This document shows, in pieces, positions 1,607 to 11,825 of a stretch of DNA of 64,000 bases (its first letter is position 1; every line of letters starts with the position of its first letter). This DNA is from Gammaproteobacteria bacterium. Lineage in GTDB: Bacteria; Pseudomonadota; Gammaproteobacteria; Tenderiales; Tenderiaceae. The notes under the pieces are model-generated. The model did not search any database, was not told where the DNA came from, and worked only from the letters and a program-made list of their open reading frames with translations. The stretch is taken from contig JACQEP010000014.1 of assembly GCA_016200485.1 (NCBI GenBank), positions 124,001-188,000 on the forward strand. Reading direction: 5' to 3'. Made by a program: the position numbers and the translations under genes.

Positions 1607-2041
1607 TTATTTTTCGTAAAGTACGAAATTTGGCAATTCAGAAAGGCCAATATAATTAAACATCTTGTAATTCGCCCGCCGAGCGGAAGATGATAGCTGA
1701 CGTTTTTTAAGATTGCTCTTTGGAATAAATGGGTAAAAAACAATCCGCTGTTTGTTTTTTCCTTTCTCTTTCCATTTGAAATTCACCAGCAATGGCGGAA
1801 CGATAAAGCCAGACTTTAACACCTTATCCATAATATCCCAGCCCGCACCGAAGATTTCATCTTTTGGCTTGCACTTATTGGTTTTCACTTGTGCGCGAAA
1901 GGCACAACCTGAACATTGAACATCATAGAGGGGGTAATTCGTTGGCAATTGCATCAAAGGCTTGCTACAGTTTGGACATGAAACTAGCCGTATTACCTCA
2001 CGTTCACCGTCATTACCAGATTTATTGTTTCCGGCATTCAT
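1607..2041 (-). CDS. DpnI-like PD-(D/E)XK nuclease domain protein without the winged helix
   Basis: This 144-residue protein resembles the catalytic domain of DpnI, an endonuclease that cuts N6-methyladenine-containing GATC sites. Two CxxC pairs (C22, C25, C43, C46) frame the zinc site. D40 and K53 match the DpnI D...ExK core, but the Glu position is Gln (Q51, in AQVKT). A later stretch, LSSSARRANY, matches the DpnI segment that contains ARRAGW. The C-terminal winged helix through which DpnI also reads methylated DNA is absent, so specificity cannot be carried over. The gene lies nine bases after the HEPN-like gene in the restriction operon. A modification-dependent or accessory nuclease is the likely role, but this is inference. 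Confidence 0.7.
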   Translation of the reverse strand: MNAGNNKSGNDGEREVIRLVSCPNCSKPLMQLPTNYPLYDVQCSGCAFRAQVKTNKCKPKDEIFGAGWDIMDKVLKSGFIVPPLLVNFKWKEKGKNKQRIVFYPFIPKSNLKKRQLSSSARRANYKMFNYIGLSELPNFVLYEK

Positions 2042-2050
2042 ATCATCTGT

Positions 2051-2935
2051 CTACCATTTCGCCCAGCCCAAATCACACAGAATTATCCCAACTGCCTGAA
2101 TCGCAAATTCAGCATCTTGTTCAGTCAGTTGTCGTAACTTCCGCTTCTCTTGTTCGGAGTGTTTTCCTCTAGGATGTAACCTCGAAATTATCCGCGCCGC
2201 GTTTGCGACAATCTCTAATTTTTCTTCCGCAATTTTATCAGCAAGCCCTCCAAGATCGAGACCAGGATTTACTTTCCCTTTACTCTGAAGGTACTTTGAT
2301 AATATTGAGGATGCCGCCTCCCGACATCGGTCAACAACTGAATCCGCACCCGCCCGGAATATTTCCTCCTCCAATTTATCAATATACTCAATGACTGATA
2401 CGCCATCATTCGACAGGATCTTTTCCCTATCTAGTTCAGGTAAAGCGCCGCCGCTCTTTCGAGCGCGCAATGTAATCATTTCATCGCCAATTGCGCTTGT
2501 CTCTATATTGACCAGTGTCCAAATAGTAAAACCGTCTTCTGAGCCCAAAAGAAGTACAGGCTGATCTATTTTTAGCAACTTAAGATGATGTCTTAGTCGA
2601 ATCGATTGAAAAGCATATACATGCTTCCTATTATATGGGCCTATACCAATTTCTGTCCCTAAAGCCGGGTGTGGCCACACATTCCATTGTTGAACTATTG
2701 ACTGATCGGCCTGATAAATTCTTCCTCTTCGAATCCGGCTAGATAAATCGTAGGTCTCTTCCCTAAAAATAAGGCTCGTTGACGGAAGAACATTATATTT
2801 CGCTGGTTGAAATATCGTTTCATGAACAGAAGCAATGGCCACTTGGAGTAATATTGGGCTAGGCCAGACGGGGTGCCCCCAATTTGATTGGGCCTCGTAA
2901 ACAAGGCTTGTATCTCTATCAATCGCGATATTCAT
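2051..2935 (-). CDS. Uncharacterised protein with possible C-terminal HEPN-like helical domain
   Basis: I recognise no family for the 294-residue whole. Residues 1-165 look beta-rich and contain repeated Trp and Pro (NWGHPVWPSP, WNVWPHP). Residues 180-294 are predicted helical from composition. This part contains SRLHPRGKH, giving an R252-x6-H259 spacing inside a helix-rich C-terminus. HEPN ribonucleases of toxin and abortive-infection systems carry an R-x4-6-H motif in such a place, so a HEPN-type RNase is a reasonable hypothesis but unproven. The gene starts 39 bases after hsdM and is followed nine bases later by the DpnI-like gene, so it belongs to the restriction operon. Confidence 0.55.
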   Translation of the reverse strand: MNIAIDRDTSLVYEAQSNWGHPVWPSPILLQVAIASVHETIFQPAKYNVLPSTSLIFREETYDLSSRIRRGRIYQADQSIVQQWNVWPHPALGTEIGIGPYNRKHVYAFQSIRLRHHLKLLKIDQPVLLLGSEDGFTIWTLVNIETSAIGDEMITLRARKSGGALPELDREKILSNDGVSVIEYIDKLEEEIFRAGADSVVDRCREAASSILSKYLQSKGKVNPGLDLGGLADKIAEEKLEIVANAARIISRLHPRGKHSEQEKRKLRQLTEQDAEFAIQAVGIILCDLGWAKW

Positions 2936-2974: not shown

Positions 2975-4612
2975 TTATTTATCTGTCTTCTGACTTACGA
3001 TCGGCAAGGGAGATAATCCAAGCGCCCTAAGAAATTCATTGTGGTTATTAGTGGCCCCAACAATTTTCATTTCCAGGTCAACCAGCTCAGCATTTACCAC
3101 CCCAAGATCAATTTTCTCCTCCGTCATGGCGGTGCTGACATAACGCGAAATATTTAGGTTGAAATCGTTTTTCTCGATCTCCTCCATCAACACACGCCGT
3201 GAGTAGCGCGCCTCTTCATTACGGTATTGGTAGGTGCTGACGATCTTGTCGATGTGTTCCGGCAGCAGCTTGTTTTGTCGCTTGCCTTTCTCAAAGTGAT
3301 CGCTGGCGTTGATAAAGAGCACGTCATCTGGTTTTTTGCACCGTTTCAAAACAAGAATACAAACCGGGATGCCGGTAGAGAAAAACAAGTTTGCAGGCAG
3401 ACCGATCACGGTGTCGATATGGCCATCTTTTAGCAGCTTGGTGCGGATGCGTTCTTCCGCGCCGCCACGGAACAGCACGCCGTGGGGCAGAATAATCGCC
3501 ATCACACCGCTATCACTGAGGAAGTGGAAACCGTGCAACAGAAAGGCGAAGTCGGCGGCGGACTTCGGGGCAAGGCCATAGTTCTTGAAGCGAAAATCCT
3601 CGCCCAGTGCATCGTTCGGTTCCCAGCGGTAGCTGAAGGGTGGATTGGCGATCACAGCATCGAATTGCATCTTCTTGGCCGGGTTCATCTCATTGAGAAT
3701 ATCCCAGTCGTTAAGCAATGAGTCGCCGTGGTGTATCTCGAACTCGGTATCCTTCACCCCGTGCAGCAGCATGTTCATGCGCGCCAGGTTGTAAGTGGTG
3801 ATGTTCTTTTCCTGTCCGTAAATCTTTCCGATTGTTCCGCGCTCTTTATGAAGTTGCTTGCGCACATTCAGCAGCAGCGAGCCGGAGCCGCAGGCGAAGT
3901 CCAGCACCTTGCTCAGTTTTTTCTTTTTGCCGTTTTTGGGTTCCTGACTGTCCAGCGTGACGATTTCGGAAAGAATGGTGGAGATCTGCTGCGGGGTATA
4001 GAACTCGCCCGCCTTTTTGCCGGAACCGGCGGCGAATTCGCCGATCAGGTACTCATAGGCATCGCCCAGGATATCGGTGTCGGTGCTGAATTTCGAAATG
4101 CCTTCAGCGATCTTCTGAATGATGGTGCAGAGCTTGGCATTGCGATCTGACGGTTTCTTGCCCAACTTCTCGGAGTGCAGGTTGATTTCCGAAAACAGCC
4201 CCTGAAATGTACTCTCGAATGATTTCTCTTCGATGTACTTGAAGCCCTTCCACAAGGTATCCAGCAGGTCTTTGTGGTGCGTGCGCGCCATTTCGGCAAC
4301 GCTGCTCCAAAGGTGCTGCGGTTCGATCACATAATGCACCTTGAGGCGCATCTGTTTTTCAAAGTCTTCGGCATCTGCGGCGTTCTCTTCGTACCAGATT
4401 GCCAGCGGTGCGCGCCGGTCATCCTTTTGAGGTGTGGGATAGTCTTTGCCCAGCTCCTTCTTCGCCGCCATCTCGTAGTTGTCCGAGAGGTAGCGCAAAA
4501 ACAGGAACGAAAGCATATAGTCGCGAAAGTCGTCGGCATTCATCGCGCCGCGTAATTGGTCGGCGATATCCCAAAGGGTTTTACCGAGTTGGTTGAGTTC
4601 TTCTTTGGTCAT
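2975..4612 (-). CDS. hsdM: Type I restriction-modification DNA methyltransferase subunit HsdM
   Basis: HsdM transfers the methyl group of S-adenosylmethionine to adenine N6 within the bipartite site chosen by HsdS. The 545-residue protein has the N-terminal helical HsdM domain (residues 5-150), then the N6-adenine methylase core. Landmarks are GEFYTPQQIS (202-211), AdoMet motif I DFACGSG (238-244) and catalytic motif IV NPPF (323-326). Length and motifs are normal for a functional enzyme. Its start overlaps the dinD stop by four bases. In classical loci hsdM comes first; here it follows hsdR, hsdS and the accessory genes, so methylase synthesis depends on the same long transcript unless an internal promoter exists. 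Confidence 0.97.
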   Translation of the reverse strand: MTKEELNQLGKTLWDIADQLRGAMNADDFRDYMLSFLFLRYLSDNYEMAAKKELGKDYPTPQKDDRRAPLAIWYEENAADAEDFEKQMRLKVHYVIEPQHLWSSVAEMARTHHKDLLDTLWKGFKYIEEKSFESTFQGLFSEINLHSEKLGKKPSDRNAKLCTIIQKIAEGISKFSTDTDILGDAYEYLIGEFAAGSGKKAGEFYTPQQISTILSEIVTLDSQEPKNGKKKKLSKVLDFACGSGSLLLNVRKQLHKERGTIGKIYGQEKNITTYNLARMNMLLHGVKDTEFEIHHGDSLLNDWDILNEMNPAKKMQFDAVIANPPFSYRWEPNDALGEDFRFKNYGLAPKSAADFAFLLHGFHFLSDSGVMAIILPHGVLFRGGAEERIRTKLLKDGHIDTVIGLPANLFFSTGIPVCILVLKRCKKPDDVLFINASDHFEKGKRQNKLLPEHIDKIVSTYQYRNEEARYSRRVLMEEIEKNDFNLNISRYVSTAMTEEKIDLGVVNAELVDLEMKIVGATNNHNEFLRALGLSPLPIVSQKTDK

Positions 4613-5478
4613 GGCTTTCCATTCTTCTCGTTAGATGGCGGCAGAGTCTTGGTGTTTTTGGCCAGTTTCTTTTCGTCCGATTTCACCCGCCGCTCCAGTT
4701 TTTTCAAATCCTCTTCCGCAGCAAGGCGTTCGGGTTTGATACCGCGCTGCCCCAGCATCTCGCGCACGCTGACATTATTTTGCACATGCTCATCGGTAAT
4801 GGCGCGCTCGCCTTGCAAATTGGCTTGCTCAACATTGTGGTTGGTCATCTCCGTCGCAAGATTTTTGGCGGCAATCGTCAGGGTGGGCAGAAAGTCTGCC
4901 AGCGGACGGCTTTTAACGATGCCGTATTTGTCTTTCATCGCCTGTGTTGTGTGGCCACCGAATAAGGCTTGGTCACCTTGTGAGCGAATACGGCCAAACC
5001 CGGCCTCATCCACCCCGCGCTCATAGATGTTTTGCGACAGGGCCTTTTCCGATTCTTTCAGACGGTCGCGCGCTTCCATACGGGCCTGCAAGCGCATACG
5101 GTCTTCAATCAGCTCCTGCTTGCGGGTTTGCACTGCAAAATAGCTTTGTGCAAAGGCGATCTCGGGTTTGCGCGGGTCGCCGTTCTGGGCAATCAAATAG
5201 CAGGCATAGCGAGTCAGCATGAAGTCATCGATTTCCCGCCTAGCGCCGCTGCCCAACTCGACCATTTTCGTGACGCCACGAAAATGGTCCGAAGCCGCCT
5301 GGCCTGTGGCCTCGCAGGATTCCATGGCGCGGTTGATGGCGGTTTGGAAGTTCTCCCAGCGTGCGTAACCCAGCTGCTCCTGCAGGTCGCGGGCAAACCA
5401 GAACTCGATACCCTCGGCATCGGCGCGTTGTGCTGCCGCTTCAAGATGTTGGTGCAAAATCTGCAGTTGCTTATCCAT
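4609..5478 (-). CDS. dinD: DinD-like DNA-damage-inducible protein D
   Basis: The 289-residue protein matches DinD (BRO-N/DinD family). Its N-terminus has FWFARDLQEQLGYARWENF, a BRO-N-like segment. The middle holds the SHFRGVTK..GARREIDDFMLTRYACYLIAQN region, quoted here with a gap, and the C-terminus is a charged helical tail rich in Lys and Glu. In E. coli, DinD (RcdA) inhibits RecA strand-exchange activity. In other genomes dinD-like genes often sit inside type I restriction loci. Here it overlaps prrC by eight bases upstream and hsdM by four downstream, so translational coupling is likely. A role in dampening RecA or sensing damage during restriction is inferred from context. Confidence 0.88.
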   Translation of the reverse strand: MDKQLQILHQHLEAAAQRADAEGIEFWFARDLQEQLGYARWENFQTAINRAMESCEATGQAASDHFRGVTKMVELGSGARREIDDFMLTRYACYLIAQNGDPRKPEIAFAQSYFAVQTRKQELIEDRMRLQARMEARDRLKESEKALSQNIYERGVDEAGFGRIRSQGDQALFGGHTTQAMKDKYGIVKSRPLADFLPTLTIAAKNLATEMTNHNVEQANLQGERAITDEHVQNNVSVREMLGQRGIKPERLAAEEDLKKLERRVKSDEKKLAKNTKTLPPSNEKNGKP

Positions 5479-6646
5479 GTGATGCCTCTTCAGTCAATTC
5501 CGGGAACAACTCTGGATTGAATCGATAGTTCGCCATAAAGTCATTCAATATTTTTTTGAAATACTGCTTGTTCTCTTCCATCATCTCGCGTGGCTCAAAC
5601 AACGAATAGTTGCCGTGGCTCAGCACGTTGATCAAGCGCGCATGCAGGATGTCATCTTCATCGTCGGCTTCCTGCTTGATACAGGCAGAGAAATTCTTGA
5701 AACCATGAAAGGTGGCTGTCTTTTCCAGAATGCTCCGCAGGATATTGAAGTGGTAGGTGTAGAGGCGATCAGTTTCAACAGCTTCGTGGAGTTGCTTGAG
5801 CAAGGCGACATGGTGGAAAAATGGGGTCTCGTTGGTATAGCGCAGCGTATAACTGCCAGCACCTTTGTCGCTGTTTAGAAAAAATGGTTGAAGCGGATTT
5901 CCCTTTCTGTCATTCAGCGCATTCCACATCACATTGAAAAACAGTGCATGGTGTGACGAAATGACCGCCTTGATTTTGCCGTTGGAATCTTTCAAGAGAT
6001 GTGCCAAATGGGCGGCCACCGCAATCGCATTATTGTCGTCCAGCGATGAGATGGGATCATCGATATAAATGTATTTAACCCACTCATAGACTTCCTGCCC
6101 ATCTATGGCCAGTTGGGCGACCGCGAGGAAGAAACACCAGACAAAGATATTCTCTTCCCCGCGCGATACCTTGATTGGAACAGGGTCGCCGTTTTCATCC
6201 CGGTCGCGAAAGAAGGTGATTTCCCAATCGCCGTAATTGATGAAAAAGTTAAAGTCCGTATAGCGCGCCAACAGCGGGCCGATCCGGTTTTCCATTTCCA
6301 GCTCTTGCAGCCCACCAAAGAAACGCGAGTCGCGGTTCAGGCGCATGACGCGCCGCTCATCATTCTCCAGGTCGTTATCCCAGTAAAAAAGGTCTTCGGT
6401 AAAAGCGTTGAAGTAGAGCGTATCCCGCTGAACCTCATCAATGGTTAACGCATCATTTACACTGTCATTGACCGTCATTGGTCTTGTCGTAACAGTTTTA
6501 CCCAACTCCTTGAATGCCATCGACAGGCGGGTCTTGCCTGTGCCGTTGTAGGCGAATAGCAGGATGTATTTCTTCTCTGCCAGCTTATCGCGCAGGTGGG
6601 TGGCGACTGCGTTGATGTCGGCGAAGGTAGCGAGACCATTGCTCAT
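5471..6646 (-). CDS. prrC: PrrC-like anticodon nuclease with ABC-type NTPase domain
   Basis: PrrC cleaves the tRNA-Lys anticodon loop when phage proteins disable its partner type I restriction enzyme. This 391-residue protein has the expected two halves. The NTPase half shows AYNGTGKT (Walker A, K38), a degenerate signature SRGEEN (161-166) and YIDDPISSLDD (Walker B region, 194-204). The nuclease half has LRSILEK, giving R304 and E308, followed by H344 in VLSHGNYS. That arrangement corresponds to the R-E-H catalytic triad of E. coli PrrC (R320, E324, H356). Length is close to the E. coli protein (396). The start ATG overlaps the stop of a 31-codon micro-ORF that supplies a GGAGG. The call is strong; tRNA specificity is inferred. 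Confidence 0.9.
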   Translation of the reverse strand: MSNGLATFADINAVATHLRDKLAEKKYILLFAYNGTGKTRLSMAFKELGKTVTTRPMTVNDSVNDALTIDEVQRDTLYFNAFTEDLFYWDNDLENDERRVMRLNRDSRFFGGLQELEMENRIGPLLARYTDFNFFINYGDWEITFFRDRDENGDPVPIKVSRGEENIFVWCFFLAVAQLAIDGQEVYEWVKYIYIDDPISSLDDNNAIAVAAHLAHLLKDSNGKIKAVISSHHALFFNVMWNALNDRKGNPLQPFFLNSDKGAGSYTLRYTNETPFFHHVALLKQLHEAVETDRLYTYHFNILRSILEKTATFHGFKNFSACIKQEADDEDDILHARLINVLSHGNYSLFEPREMMEENKQYFKKILNDFMANYRFNPELFPELTEEASHG

Positions 6647-6738
6647 GCGCCCACCTCCTCCATGGCTGGAAAGAGTTGGTGCATCAGGCCTTTTTTATGG
6701 GTTTTAAGTACGGTAAATTGTAGGGTCTGCTTTGTCAT
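6643..6738 (-). CDS. 31-codon micro-ORF duplicating the HsdS C-terminal tail
   Basis: This frame was found by reading the gap between gene X and prrC. It starts at ATG 6738, overlapping the X stop as ATGA, and stops at TGA 6643, overlapping the prrC start as ATGA. Its product contains VLKTHKKGLMHQLFPAMEEV, nearly the same as the HsdS C-terminus ALKTHKKGLMQQLFPAMDEV. The end of the frame encodes GGAGG about eight bases before the prrC ATG. It therefore probably works as a coupling leader for prrC. It is best explained as the relic of an hsdS tail left when gene X was inserted between hsdS and prrC. Confidence 0.75.
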   Translation of the reverse strand: MTKQTLQFTVLKTHKKGLMHQLFPAMEEVGA

Positions 6739-7580
6739 TGTATCACCCCGCCAAACAAATCTCCCTGAGCAGGTCGTTTGCCTACAAGCCCAGAGGAAAC
6801 GGTAAATCCACTTAACTCAGAACTTGATAGTGGCACATCAATTTCAGCATCGTTGTAACTTAAGACCCGGATAACCAGGTATTTGACTTTATTGGTCGGG
6901 CGTTTGACTATCTGAACACGCATGACATCAGTGGTATGAAGTGGCAGAGCGTCCAATTTAACCTTTTCCCAAAATTTACCAGTTAAGTCCTTGTCGAAAT
7001 CGAAGGCGTTTTGATTATCCTCAACAATTTCAATTTTTCCGCGCCACGAGCGCTTGCCTTTCCAATCCGGGCTATGCACGATAATATTTGTTTCACCCAG
7101 ATATAGAAGCTCTTCATCGGGTACCTCTTTGATATACAAATGGAAGTTATTCCGCGGTATAGGAGCAAAATCACCAAGACGAAAAGTATCTATACAATTA
7201 TCTTTCTGGAACTGGTGGTAAATCTTATTTTTCTGTTTAATACATTCTCGTGGAAATTTTTCTGGAATATCCGCCGCTCTTCTTGTAACAAACTCGTTAA
7301 CAGCCCGAACAATTTCGGCGTGCCCTTTTTTTGCCCAATCGTCAGCAGTTTCTCCAGTCAGCAAGGTAATAAACGGGCTAGCTCCAATAAAGCTAATCAA
7401 AAAAAACAGATTGGTTTTCCAGCCTCCTTCCTCCGGAGTGCCAATCTGTATGTCGATAGCAAGACCAAAAACCTCGGTAATTTCTTTATAAGACTCTATG
7501 AAAACAAGAAGTGAATTTGTATTGATTTCATGTTTGCCCTGAAAATTTCCGAAGTGAATTGGCAAGACAAATTCGTTCAT
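6735..7580 (-). CDS. Uncharacterised accessory protein X of the restriction operon
   Basis: I do not recognise this 281-residue protein. The N-terminus (FVLPIHFGNFQGKHEINTNS) is followed by a hydrophobic stretch at about residues 57-75 (NLFFLISFIGASPFITLLTG), which could be a membrane-inserting or buried helix. A helical segment follows, and then a beta-rich C-terminal half ending in GKRPAQGDLFGG. It lies between hsdS and the prrC leader with four-base overlaps on both sides, flanked by two copies of the hsdS tail. The codon composition is more AT-rich than hsdR. Its place suggests a defence or regulatory partner of the anticodon nuclease, but nothing in the sequence proves this. Confidence 0.6.
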   Translation of the reverse strand: MNEFVLPIHFGNFQGKHEINTNSLLVFIESYKEITEVFGLAIDIQIGTPEEGGWKTNLFFLISFIGASPFITLLTGETADDWAKKGHAEIVRAVNEFVTRRAADIPEKFPRECIKQKNKIYHQFQKDNCIDTFRLGDFAPIPRNNFHLYIKEVPDEELLYLGETNIIVHSPDWKGKRSWRGKIEIVEDNQNAFDFDKDLTGKFWEKVKLDALPLHTTDVMRVQIVKRPTNKVKYLVIRVLSYNDAEIDVPLSSSELSGFTVSSGLVGKRPAQGDLFGGVIQ

Positions 7581-8848
7581 GCCGGCACCTCATCCATGGC
7601 AGGGAAAAGCTGCTGCATTAGGCCTTTTTTATGTGTCTTGAGGGCTTCGACTTTTTTGGCTTGGGCGGTGATGAGTCCGTCGAGGGAAGAAAGGCAATCG
7701 GCGATTTTTTGTTGCTCCGGCAGACCTGGAACATTTATGTTTAGCTTTCTAAGTTGGCTTGAATACAGATGAACAACTGAAATCCCTTGAGCCAGTCGAG
7801 CAATCTCTTTCTTTTTGGCGTTGTTCAAGTAATAAGAAAGGAAAACCCCATTCAAGTTTGATCGAATAATATTTAGGTCGCCTCCTAAAGCGATACCACT
7901 ACTCAAAACGCATGAGGCAGTTGCAATATCTTCCTCAGTTTCGCCAGATGCGGGAATAATCACGTCATTTGCTTCACTGAGAACTAATTCATCAGCTGGC
8001 ACATCCGTGTAAGATATAACGGTTTCTATTGTCTCATTGTAATGAGTATAGAGTTCCCCATATCTAATACATGGCTGTTTGCCATTCGGCGATATATCTG
8101 ATTTAGAAACACCCTTACCTTTTGAAAAGGTCGCCACTTTTTCAAGTGGCTTTTCTTCCCACCCTCCCGCCCCTCGAAACTCTGGAAAGCGGCGTTGGGG
8201 GGTGGTTTTGCCTTCAGCGGGGAAGAGTTGTTGCATCAGGCCTTTTTTATGGGTCTTGAGGGCGTCGAGTTTTTGGGTTTGGGCGGTGATCAAATCGTCG
8301 ACGGAAGTGAGGCAATTGGCGATTTTTTGTTGTTCACCTAACTCAGGAAGCGAGACTGTAAGCCTCAGGAAGTCTTTTTTGTTTAACACCCTATTTCTCC
8401 CGGCACCGCCGGGAGAAATAACACCGAGTTTGTAAATAAACTGCTTATCAAGAATTACGTATCGAAAGAATTCTGGAATCGCTACTTTTCTTTTGAAGAC
8501 AAATGTTGGAAAGCGATGAGAAACAAGAGCGCCTGCATCGGCTTGTTGCGCAATGGCAATCGCCCCTTCCCAAGCAAACGTGATGTTTACAATCAAGTCA
8601 TCAGCGCAGACCTCATAGAGATACTCCATCGCGTTCTTTTCAGGATTTTTGAGATGTTTTAAAAAAGTGCCTTTCCCATGGCTACGTATCCCCAATCCCA
8701 AGTAATGATCAACGGGTTTTTTTCTTTCTCGAACAACGGGAGAAAGTGCATCTTCTAACGGCTTGTTTTTCCATTCCGTCGCGTCCCGAAACTCAGTAAA
8801 GCGGCGCACCGGCACCAGTGCCTTTTTACTTTGCTTACTCATACGCAT
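7577..8848 (-). CDS. hsdS: Type I restriction-modification specificity subunit HsdS
   Basis: HsdS recognises the two halves of the target site and bridges HsdM and HsdR. The 423-residue protein has two target-recognition domains (about 15-170 and 225-380). Each is followed by a conserved helical spacer ending in ALKTHKKGLMQQLFPA, at residues 196-211 and about 402-417. This internal repeat is normal for HsdS. It overlaps the hsdR end by 14 bases and the start of gene X by four. A third copy of the tail lies downstream at 6643-6738. Target sequence cannot be predicted from the protein alone. Confidence 0.96.
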   Translation of the reverse strand: MRMSKQSKKALVPVRRFTEFRDATEWKNKPLEDALSPVVRERKKPVDHYLGLGIRSHGKGTFLKHLKNPEKNAMEYLYEVCADDLIVNITFAWEGAIAIAQQADAGALVSHRFPTFVFKRKVAIPEFFRYVILDKQFIYKLGVISPGGAGRNRVLNKKDFLRLTVSLPELGEQQKIANCLTSVDDLITAQTQKLDALKTHKKGLMQQLFPAEGKTTPQRRFPEFRGAGGWEEKPLEKVATFSKGKGVSKSDISPNGKQPCIRYGELYTHYNETIETVISYTDVPADELVLSEANDVIIPASGETEEDIATASCVLSSGIALGGDLNIIRSNLNGVFLSYYLNNAKKKEIARLAQGISVVHLYSSQLRKLNINVPGLPEQQKIADCLSSLDGLITAQAKKVEALKTHKKGLMQQLFPAMDEVPA

Positions 8849-11825
8849 TCAACCCCGATATTTCGCGCCCGCCCGCAAGTTTTTGCAGATAGGGCACCAA
8901 GTCTGCCATCAAGGCCAGTTCGGCTTCACGCCGCGCTTTCCAACCCAGCCCTAGGGGGCTAAGCAGGTCGGTGAGCTGTTCGCCGTCGAATATCATGCGG
9001 CTCATGATGGCATCGACAAAGGCTTGCAGCGCCGCGGATTGCAGGCCGTGCTTGTTGGCGATGTTGGACAGGTCGGCGGCGGCCTTTTGCGCCTTGAAGG
9101 TCTGATAGCCTGCGCGAATCTCTTTTTCATTGAGTGCTTCGCCGGTTTTCAGGCTGTTGATATAGGCGATGATGTCTTCGCGCTCTTCCATCAGATTGGC
9201 GTTGGCGCTGATCAGCTCAATGAGCTGGGCGCGGGTCATCTTTTGCTTGCCGGTTTTCTGCGTGGATTTAGCAATCAGCCCCATGATGTAGTCGTAGTCG
9301 ATGAGGCTGGAGGCGAACAGCACCAGGTCGAATTCCAGTTGTTGCACCTCTGGCCCCGCCTCATCGCCTTTGCCCTGTTTGCGCTTGAGTTCCAGCGCGG
9401 TGTCAAGGTAGGCAGCCTTGAAGCTGCGCAGGGTGTCGGTGGGCAGTTTCTGCTCGATGGTCTGTTTGCTCTGGTCATCGAGGTCGGTGTATTGCTCCAG
9501 TTGGGTCTTGAGCTTTTGCACTTCTTTAAAGTGGTTGATGAATTCCGCCTTGGCGGTGTCGCCCTTGAGGTTGACCACTTGCGAGGGTTCGCAGGGCAGC
9601 CCTTTGGCGGCCATAAAGGTTTCCAGCTTGCCCACGGCGGCTTGGTATTTTTCCACCACCTTGGGGGCGGGATCGACCAGCCAGATTTCCCGCGCGCGGT
9701 CTATGGCTGCGCCGGAAAAGAGTTTGATGGCGTCGTCTACTTCGATCTCCTGATAGCGGAAGTCGAGGATGTTGCCCCAGGGCTTGCTGTCGTTGAGCAC
9801 GCGGTTGGTGCGCGACAGGGCCTGGATCAGGCCGTGGTGTTTGAGGTTTTTATCCACGTACAGGGTGTTGAGGTATTTGGAGTCGAAGCCGGTAAGCAGC
9901 ATGTCCACCACGATGGTGATGTCGATCTTGTTTTGGCGCGGGTAGTCAGCGTTGCTGTACTTCTGATCCTTGATGCGCTGCTGCACGTCCTGATAGTAGA
10001 GGTCGAATTCGTTAATGGTGTGATTGCTGCTGTATTGGAGGTTGTAGTCGTCAATAATGGTTTTGAGCGCGGCTTTCTTTTGCTCCGGCTCTTGTTTGTT
10101 GTCTTCCTTTTCCTGTGCCAGGTCTTCCTGTAGCTGCTGCACGTCTTTGTTGCCTTCTGCCGGTGGCGAGAAGACACAGGCGATGTGCAGCGGCTCGAAG
10201 GTTTCATCTTCGGCCTGTTTTGTTGCCTGCATGGTTTTGAATAGCTCGTAGTATTCAATGGCGTTGTTGATGGAGGCCGTGGCCAGTATCGCGTTAAAGC
10301 GGCGATGGTCGGTGGCGCTGTCGTGCTTTTGCAGTATGGCGTTGATGACGGCATCCGGCGGCGGTGTTTGTCCCTTCTTTGGTTTCTTATCCCCCTCCTT
10401 GCCAAAGTAGTCGATGTGGAAACTCAGTACGTTTTTGTCATCAATGGCGTGGGTGATGGTGTAGGCGTGCAGCTCTTTTTCAAAGATGTCTTTGGTGGTT
10501 ATGAATGAGCCGACATTGCCATCAATCTGCTGATAGGTGGCGTTCTCGTCAAAGATCGGTGTGCCGGTAAAGCCGAACAGTTGCGCCCTGGGGAAGAACT
10601 CTTTGATGGCCTTGTGGTTGTCGCCGAACTGGGAGCGGTGGCATTCGTCGAAGATAAAGACAACGCGCTTGTCACGCATGGGTTCGAGGCGTTCCTTGTA
10701 GGTCTGTTTGCCCTCTTTCTGTTTTGCCTTGTTGCGTTTGCTGTTTTCGTCCAGCGCCAGACCCAGCTTCTGGATGGTGGTGACGATCACCTTGTCGGCG
10801 TAGTCGTCCGACAGCATGCGGCGCACCATGGCTTCGGTGTTGGTGTTGTGCTCGACACAGCCCTCCTGGAATTTGTTGAATTCCTCGCGGGTCTGGCGGT
10901 CGAGGTCTTTGCGGTCCACCACGAACATGCATTTTTCGATGTCGGGGTTGTCCTTCAGCAAGGTGGAGGCCTTGAACGAGGTGAGCGTCTTGCCGCTGCC
11001 GGTGGTGTGCCAGATATAGCCGTTGCCGCGATTCTGGTGGATACATTCAACAATGGCCTTGACCGCATAGATTTGGTAGGGGCGCATGATGAGAATTTTT
11101 TGCTCACTCTGCACCAGAACCATGTAGCGGCTGATCAAGCGGCCCAGGCTGCATTTTTCGAGGAAGTCGTCGGCAAAGTCGTGCAGGTGGGCGATTTTGT
11201 TGTTTTTTTCATCGGCGTGCTGGTAAATGGGCAAAAAGCGTTCTTCGGCGTTGAAGCTGAAGTGCTGGTTGCGGTTATTGGCGAAGTAGCGGGTGTCGCT
11301 TTCATTGCTGACGATGAACAACTGCATGAAACAGAGCAGCGAGTTGGTGTAGCCGTTGCCGGGGTCGTTCTTGTAATCGACAATCTGCTCCATGGCGCGG
11401 CGCGGGCTGATTTGCAGGGATTTCAGCTCGATCTGCACCATCGGCAAGCCGTTGATCAGGAGGATAACGTCGTAGCGATGATGGCTGTTGTCGGTATTGA
11501 TGCGAAGCTGGTTGATGACCTCGAACTCGTTCTTGCACCAGTCCCGGATATTGACCAGCATGTATTCCAGTGGGGTGCCATCTTCGCGGACAAATTTTCC
11601 CTTCTCGCGCAAGGCCTGAGAAGCGGTGAAGACATCGGTGGTGATGATCTCGTCGCGCAGACGGGCGAATTCGGCGTCGGTGAGGTGGACGCGATTGAGG
11701 GCCTCGAACTTCTGGCGGAAGTTTTGCTCAAGGGCGGCCTTGTCGCGGATGTCGTCGCGGTAGGTGTATTTGAGATCGGTTAGCTTGGCGATCAGGCTTT
11801 GTTCGATCTGGTGTTCTGTTGTCAT
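8835..11825 (-). CDS. hsdR: Type I restriction endonuclease subunit HsdR
   Basis: HsdR is the ATP-driven translocase and nuclease of the type I complex. The 996-residue protein begins with a PD-(D/E)XK nuclease domain: D119 in RYDVI, then E133 and K135 in QIELKS, and a QxxxY motif at 147-151. The SF2 helicase core follows: TTGSGKT (274-280), DECH (393-396), TGTP (420-423) and a later TGFDSK. The C-terminal helical domain contacts HsdM. All motifs are present, so the enzyme is probably active. Its ATG overlaps the stop of a short upstream frame that resembles the N-terminus of a different HsdR type. This is the first full gene of the operon. Confidence 0.97.
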   Translation of the reverse strand: MTTEHQIEQSLIAKLTDLKYTYRDDIRDKAALEQNFRQKFEALNRVHLTDAEFARLRDEIITTDVFTASQALREKGKFVREDGTPLEYMLVNIRDWCKNEFEVINQLRINTDNSHHRYDVILLINGLPMVQIELKSLQISPRRAMEQIVDYKNDPGNGYTNSLLCFMQLFIVSNESDTRYFANNRNQHFSFNAEERFLPIYQHADEKNNKIAHLHDFADDFLEKCSLGRLISRYMVLVQSEQKILIMRPYQIYAVKAIVECIHQNRGNGYIWHTTGSGKTLTSFKASTLLKDNPDIEKCMFVVDRKDLDRQTREEFNKFQEGCVEHNTNTEAMVRRMLSDDYADKVIVTTIQKLGLALDENSKRNKAKQKEGKQTYKERLEPMRDKRVVFIFDECHRSQFGDNHKAIKEFFPRAQLFGFTGTPIFDENATYQQIDGNVGSFITTKDIFEKELHAYTITHAIDDKNVLSFHIDYFGKEGDKKPKKGQTPPPDAVINAILQKHDSATDHRRFNAILATASINNAIEYYELFKTMQATKQAEDETFEPLHIACVFSPPAEGNKDVQQLQEDLAQEKEDNKQEPEQKKAALKTIIDDYNLQYSSNHTINEFDLYYQDVQQRIKDQKYSNADYPRQNKIDITIVVDMLLTGFDSKYLNTLYVDKNLKHHGLIQALSRTNRVLNDSKPWGNILDFRYQEIEVDDAIKLFSGAAIDRAREIWLVDPAPKVVEKYQAAVGKLETFMAAKGLPCEPSQVVNLKGDTAKAEFINHFKEVQKLKTQLEQYTDLDDQSKQTIEQKLPTDTLRSFKAAYLDTALELKRKQGKGDEAGPEVQQLEFDLVLFASSLIDYDYIMGLIAKSTQKTGKQKMTRAQLIELISANANLMEEREDIIAYINSLKTGEALNEKEIRAGYQTFKAQKAAADLSNIANKHGLQSAALQAFVDAIMSRMIFDGEQLTDLLSPLGLGWKARREAELALMADLVPYLQKLAGGREISGLNAYE

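Follow-up and report, generated by a model that had tools for sequence, protein, structure and literature searches.

The window analysed here is a 64,000-nucleotide stretch of contig JACQEP010000014.1 from a gammaproteobacterium, and its minus strand carries a type I restriction-modification (R-M) locus in which hsdM (2975..4612, encoding the N6-adenine methylase), hsdS (7577..8848, encoding the specificity subunit) and hsdR (8835..11825) all look intact. Extra genes lie between hsdS and hsdM: one for a DinD-family protein (4609-5478; NCBIfam PRK11525, PADLOC PDC-S13), placed between hsdM and a PrrC-like gene; the PrrC-like gene itself (5471-6646), whose 391-aa AAA_13 product has a strong PADLOC PrrC match (E = 1e-138) and is a possible anticodon-nuclease guard; and, between the latter and hsdS, one for a 281-aa protein (6735-7580) with no match in Pfam, NCBIfam, PADLOC or PHROG. 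On the other side of hsdM, also on the minus strand, are a gene for a conserved hypothetical protein of 294 aa (2051..2935) and, 9 bp downstream of it and co-directional, a 144-aa open reading frame (ORF) with an ATG start (1607..2041), which is the DpnI-like gene considered here. The original prediction had described this ORF as encoded with a type I adenine methylase; hsdM indeed lies upstream, with the 294-aa gene in between. Relatives of the 294-aa protein were also found on Burkholderiales and Nitrosospira plasmids (27-35% identity), in one case with DUF262 and zorA genes close by. The DpnI-like gene is followed directly, on its downstream side, by a gene for a protein with a NERD domain and two topoisomerase-type zinc ribbons (345-1421; G+C 0.40).

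The 144-aa protein matched the Pfam family DpnI (PF06044) over residues 16-138 (E = 3.1e-12; 46.9 bits, with a cut-off of 26.7), no other Pfam family exceeded its own cut-off, and no Mrr profile was present among the Pfam matches up to E = 0.5. The winged helix of DpnI (DpnI_C, PF17726) was absent from the Pfam scan of this protein, which stops before the point where that domain would start in DpnI; DpnI_C was found in all four DpnI-type proteins scanned for comparison (L036, L038, L056 and L057). A sequence search of the PDB retrieved DpnI (4esj) with E = 5.4e-4 for the single sequence and 1.2e-5 for the family profile. When the AF2 model of the protein (pLDDT 85.8, pTM 0.80) was compared using Foldseek, 4kyw_A ranked first (E = 3.4e-7, probability 1.00, TM 0.76 by query length), and the three best PDB fold matches were all DpnI, 4kyw and 4esj included; the next plausible fold neighbours, archaeal Hjc resolvases, were far behind (TM 0.3-0.4). 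Near-full-length relatives at 53-78% identity, recovered by scanning genome contigs with the protein, rule out a chance ORF. We take the 144-aa protein to be a real single-domain relative of DpnI belonging to a distinct subfamily, which has QxK in place of ExK and is new within a known kind of enzyme, the DpnI relatives; no paper describing this lineage was found in a literature search that had most subscription journals outside its reach.

Residues were matched to DpnI by sequence alignment, in which the catalytic core D40-X10-Q51-X-K53 (1883..1924, minus strand) falls on D53...E64-x-K66 of DpnI; the codons, checked by eye, are at 1922-1924 (D40), 1889-1891 (Q51) and 1883-1885 (K53). Glu13 (2003-2005, minus strand) corresponds to the helix-1 glutamate E25, and D40 is bracketed by a four-cysteine motif, C22-x2-C25 and C43-x2-C46 (1904..1978, minus strand), a presumed zinc site. 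Among 36 aligned catalytic domains (25 of the window's group, 2 distant single-domain proteins and 9 of DpnI type), the equivalents of E25, D53, K66 and the four cysteines were invariant in 36/36. The ExK position, by contrast, is Q in all 27 single-domain proteins, the 2 distant ones included, and E in 9/9 DpnI-type proteins, and in the tree, where the branch leading to DpnI is long, the Q and E groups are split by a branch with 98-100 support, that is, by one change. For two pairs of relatives, each 86% identical, dN/dS was 0.064 and 0.050; in the window gene itself the synonymous changes were saturated. These data argue strongly for an intact active site under strong constraint in the QxK group. 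MspJI and EcoKMrr are moreover described as using QxK for catalysis, and the motif is predicted to do so in active BisI-family enzymes (PMC12707154, PMC4926085). Because Q is invariant in the lineage, the other catalytic and four-cysteine positions are kept and QxK is catalytic elsewhere, the glutamine is probably not a defect, and the 144-aa protein is probably active. The stand-alone DpnI-type catalytic domain with QxK that was originally predicted is thus confirmed by the Pfam match, the missing DpnI_C and the alignment, with the DpnI fold recovered in the predicted structure and no conserved residue lost among the homologues.

A family profile search of 380 Patescibacteria genomes gave eight single-domain matches and two full-length DpnI-type proteins. 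Relatives occur here and there in Patescibacteria, DPANN and Nitrososphaerota and in a few Gammaproteobacteria, a sporadic spread across distant phyla at 62-78% identity. A horizontal origin of the DpnI-like gene is likely, because it was absent in 55/55 sampled relatives of the host, its G+C is low (0.40 versus 0.50 for the window) and the nearest relative on the tree comes from a Diapherotrites MAG. A second single-domain QxK lineage, about 28-34% identical to the 144-aa protein, was found in a gammaproteobacterium (L002) and on an Azospirillum plasmid (L024). Carriage by viruses was considered and rejected, as viral contigs held no relative of either lineage, phage records held none and PHROG gave no match; plasmid carriage was likewise rejected, the distant Azospirillum relative being the only one among plasmids. 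In one relative (L059, L051) the pocket region is interrupted by an in-frame TGA, reflecting a broken gene or an assembly error.

The methyl pocket of DpnI is formed by Leu129, Arg135 and Trp138, with Gly140 required so that the Trp can pack; the proximal guanine is contacted by Arg135 and Asn48, the distal guanine by Arg126, and the minor groove by Ser17 and Gln18 (PMC4117772). The corresponding loop of the 144-aa protein carries L116, R122, Y125 and M127 (1661..1696, minus strand), aligned with L129, R135, W138 and G140, respectively. Across the window's group, the positions of Leu129 and Arg135 are each kept in 24/25 proteins, that of W138 is Tyr in 24/25 and that of G140 is Met in 25/25, while the Asn48 position is N or S and the Arg126 position K, M, H or N; the clade lacks G140 and the contacts that R126, S17 and Q18 make. 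In DpnI, W138Y keeps partial activity, and Tyr and His are found at this position in natural homologues (PMC4117772). The pocket would therefore appear still to take methyl groups, with Tyr making room for Met and the outer bases read differently, and the target site probably departs from strict Gm6ATC. The L002/L024 lineage pairs QxK and the lack of a winged helix with a full DpnI-type pocket (R126, W138 and G140), suggesting, for a root placed on the DpnI side, that the winged helix had been lost and Glu replaced by Gln before the pocket changed.

On this basis we favour, with moderate confidence, the reading that the 144-aa protein is a stand-alone, single-domain, m6A-dependent (type IV-like) nuclease with a specificity altered from Gm6ATC. 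The active site would consist of E13, D40, Q51 and K53 with a divalent metal, and the catalytic domain alone would read the substrate, Tyr125, Arg122 and Leu116 forming the m6A pocket; the changed distal guanine and minor groove contacts would direct it to a site other than strict Gm6ATC. We infer cleavage activity, m6A dependence and specificity alike from the sequence, and with most methyl-pocket positions kept, modification sensing, as proposed in the original prediction, appears to be the likeliest role. The protein would probably cut methylated foreign DNA without help, and modification-dependent nucleases have been argued to occur without a methylase of their own (PMC11037411). Damage to the winged helix of full-length DpnI strongly weakens DNA binding by its catalytic domain (PMC4117772), and thus a lone catalytic domain may bind DNA weakly unless this is compensated.

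A DpnI-fold nuclease that no longer depends on methylation, but recognises unmodified sites or DNA structures and might serve, for instance, in repair or in the general defence of DNA, is an unlikely alternative that nevertheless deserves weighing. Changes in the W/G pair and in the distal guanine and minor-groove contacts would suit it, as would the position of the Hjc resolvases as next fold neighbours and the frequent location of the Patescibacteria gene after a tRNA synthetase or other housekeeping genes. However, the equivalents of L129 and R135 and an aromatic residue at 138 are almost invariant, a site-specific nuclease with no mark by which to spare its host would need protection, yet no constant methylase partner was seen, and a patchy distribution, with only eight single-domain proteins in 380 Patescibacteria, is unlike that of a repair enzyme.

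The neighbourhoods of the relatives bear on the suggestion that the protein is targeted by a partner. They contain tRNA synthetases, asparagine synthase, a clamp-loader-type ATPase, an ERCC4-type nuclease and NYN proteins, and the loci of about 25 relatives, some on short contigs, revealed no constant neighbour or methylase partner; across the same loci there is thus no obligatory cognate methylase, a feature of type IV systems. The 294-aa gene was rejected as a fixed partner, since it was not seen beside DpnI-like relatives. R-M genes do occur near the window gene and at several of these loci, namely type I genes in the window and at L011, L016 and L017, HsdS and an OLD-like ATPase at L063, and an AlwI-type nuclease and a CcrM-like methylase at L062. 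At a further one (L058), a 615-aa protein combining HSDR_N and an N6 methylase (4335-6182) with an adjacent HsdS, in a BcgI-like arrangement, is encoded beside a DpnI-like relative. At L062 (6466-9522), the DpnI-like ORF overlaps the end of the CcrM-like methylase gene, with the AlwI-family nuclease adjacent, and its pocket loop, RKRFTTIKKSGRELWMF, looks locally frame-shifted.

These R-M genes would fit an accessory subunit of the adjoining systems, with HsdM, HsdS or another m6A methylase providing the targeting or the trigger. Three hsdM loci were counted among 24 relatives versus about 0.1 expected from the presence of HsdM in 78/362 Patescibacteria genomes (about 90 genes), giving P of about 1e-4 to 3e-4, a rough statistic given short MAG contigs, cut flanks and loci that are not independent. 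For most relatives, however, no R-M gene is visible, the R-M systems that do occur are of different types, the neighbours at L007, L009, L010 and L014 are housekeeping genes, and the clustering of unrelated defence genes in shared islands explains the excess without any joint mechanism. Because the relatives are scattered and share no constant neighbour, a partner for the DpnI-like protein is unlikely, contrary to one of the options in the original prediction, and we regard the accessory role as quite improbable. A catalytically dead m6A reader, raised as one possibility in the original prediction and suggested by the Glu to Gln replacement at a DpnI metal ligand, merits very little credence, as nothing beyond this Gln favours it, whereas E, D, Q and K are invariant and the QxK precedents are active.

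An m6A-dependent nuclease of the kind we favour has to coexist with the methylation of its own host. The original prediction held that the protein must ignore the HsdM mark unless a partner targets it; that the mark is ignored is true of any surviving cell and is not special to this one. For DpnI itself, Gm6ATC is the only sequence read; a type I mark set in some other context is therefore not necessarily a substrate, and the marks of the host's own HsdM would be spared by their different sequence context. A conflict with host Dam was rejected: the sole D12-type (Dam-family-like) methylase found in the host genome (L025, 1411-2172) scores below the dam cut-off and is encoded beside a gene resembling that of a Mu-like phage head protein. 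Nor was any depletion of Dam-family methylases seen, strong ones being present in 2/25 QxK carriers versus 24/362 background genomes, a comparison of no statistical power in which the carriers are MAGs and the methylases were classed by family rather than by site. As the carriers do not avoid Dam-family methylases, strict Gm6ATC reading is slightly weakened.

A fuller account, which we put forward tentatively and hold to be possible rather than probable, is that of a horizontally spread family of minimal m6A-dependent nucleases, mostly of ultrasmall bacteria and archaea, in which coupled changes of W138 to Tyr and G140 to Met, together with the loss of R126, shifted specificity from Gm6ATC, in which one domain of about 16 kDa both reads and cuts, and which in some genomes sits beside m6A-writing R-M systems whose marks are spared. 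If active, the protein would rank as unusually small for an m6A-dependent nuclease of DpnI type, with a single domain for reading and cutting and probably a new sequence context; it could find use in the mapping of adenine methylation and would give Patescibacteria and DPANN a layer of defence, and the origin or loss of the two-domain double check of DpnI would become testable.

With the DpnI/Dam-replacing family (PF06044; 4esj, 4kyw; Neisseria Drg), the 144-aa protein has in common the predicted catalytic fold, the four-cysteine site, the helix-1 glutamate and the catalytic D and K; it also shares with DpnI the Leu, Arg and aromatic residue of the m6A pocket and an equivalent of Asn48. It differs from DpnI in lacking the winged helix, in having Q for E64, Tyr for W138 and Met for G140, in the loss of the R126, S17 and Q18 equivalents and in being about 110 residues shorter. 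The second QxK lineage (L002, L024) likewise combines QxK with four cysteines, a GE helix and no winged helix, but retains R126, W138 and G140 of the DpnI-type pocket. The modification-dependent PD-QxK nucleases of the MspJI, Mrr and BisI types share the D-X(10-12)-QxK active site and are linked to the 144-aa protein here at the level of the PD-(D/E)XK superfamily; in MspJI and Mrr the reader is a separate SRA or winged-helix domain. The winged-helix fusion m6A-dependent type IV enzymes (PMC11037411) have the same proposed role, m6A-dependent restriction without a methylase of their own, but possess a winged-helix reader, which the 144-aa protein does not.
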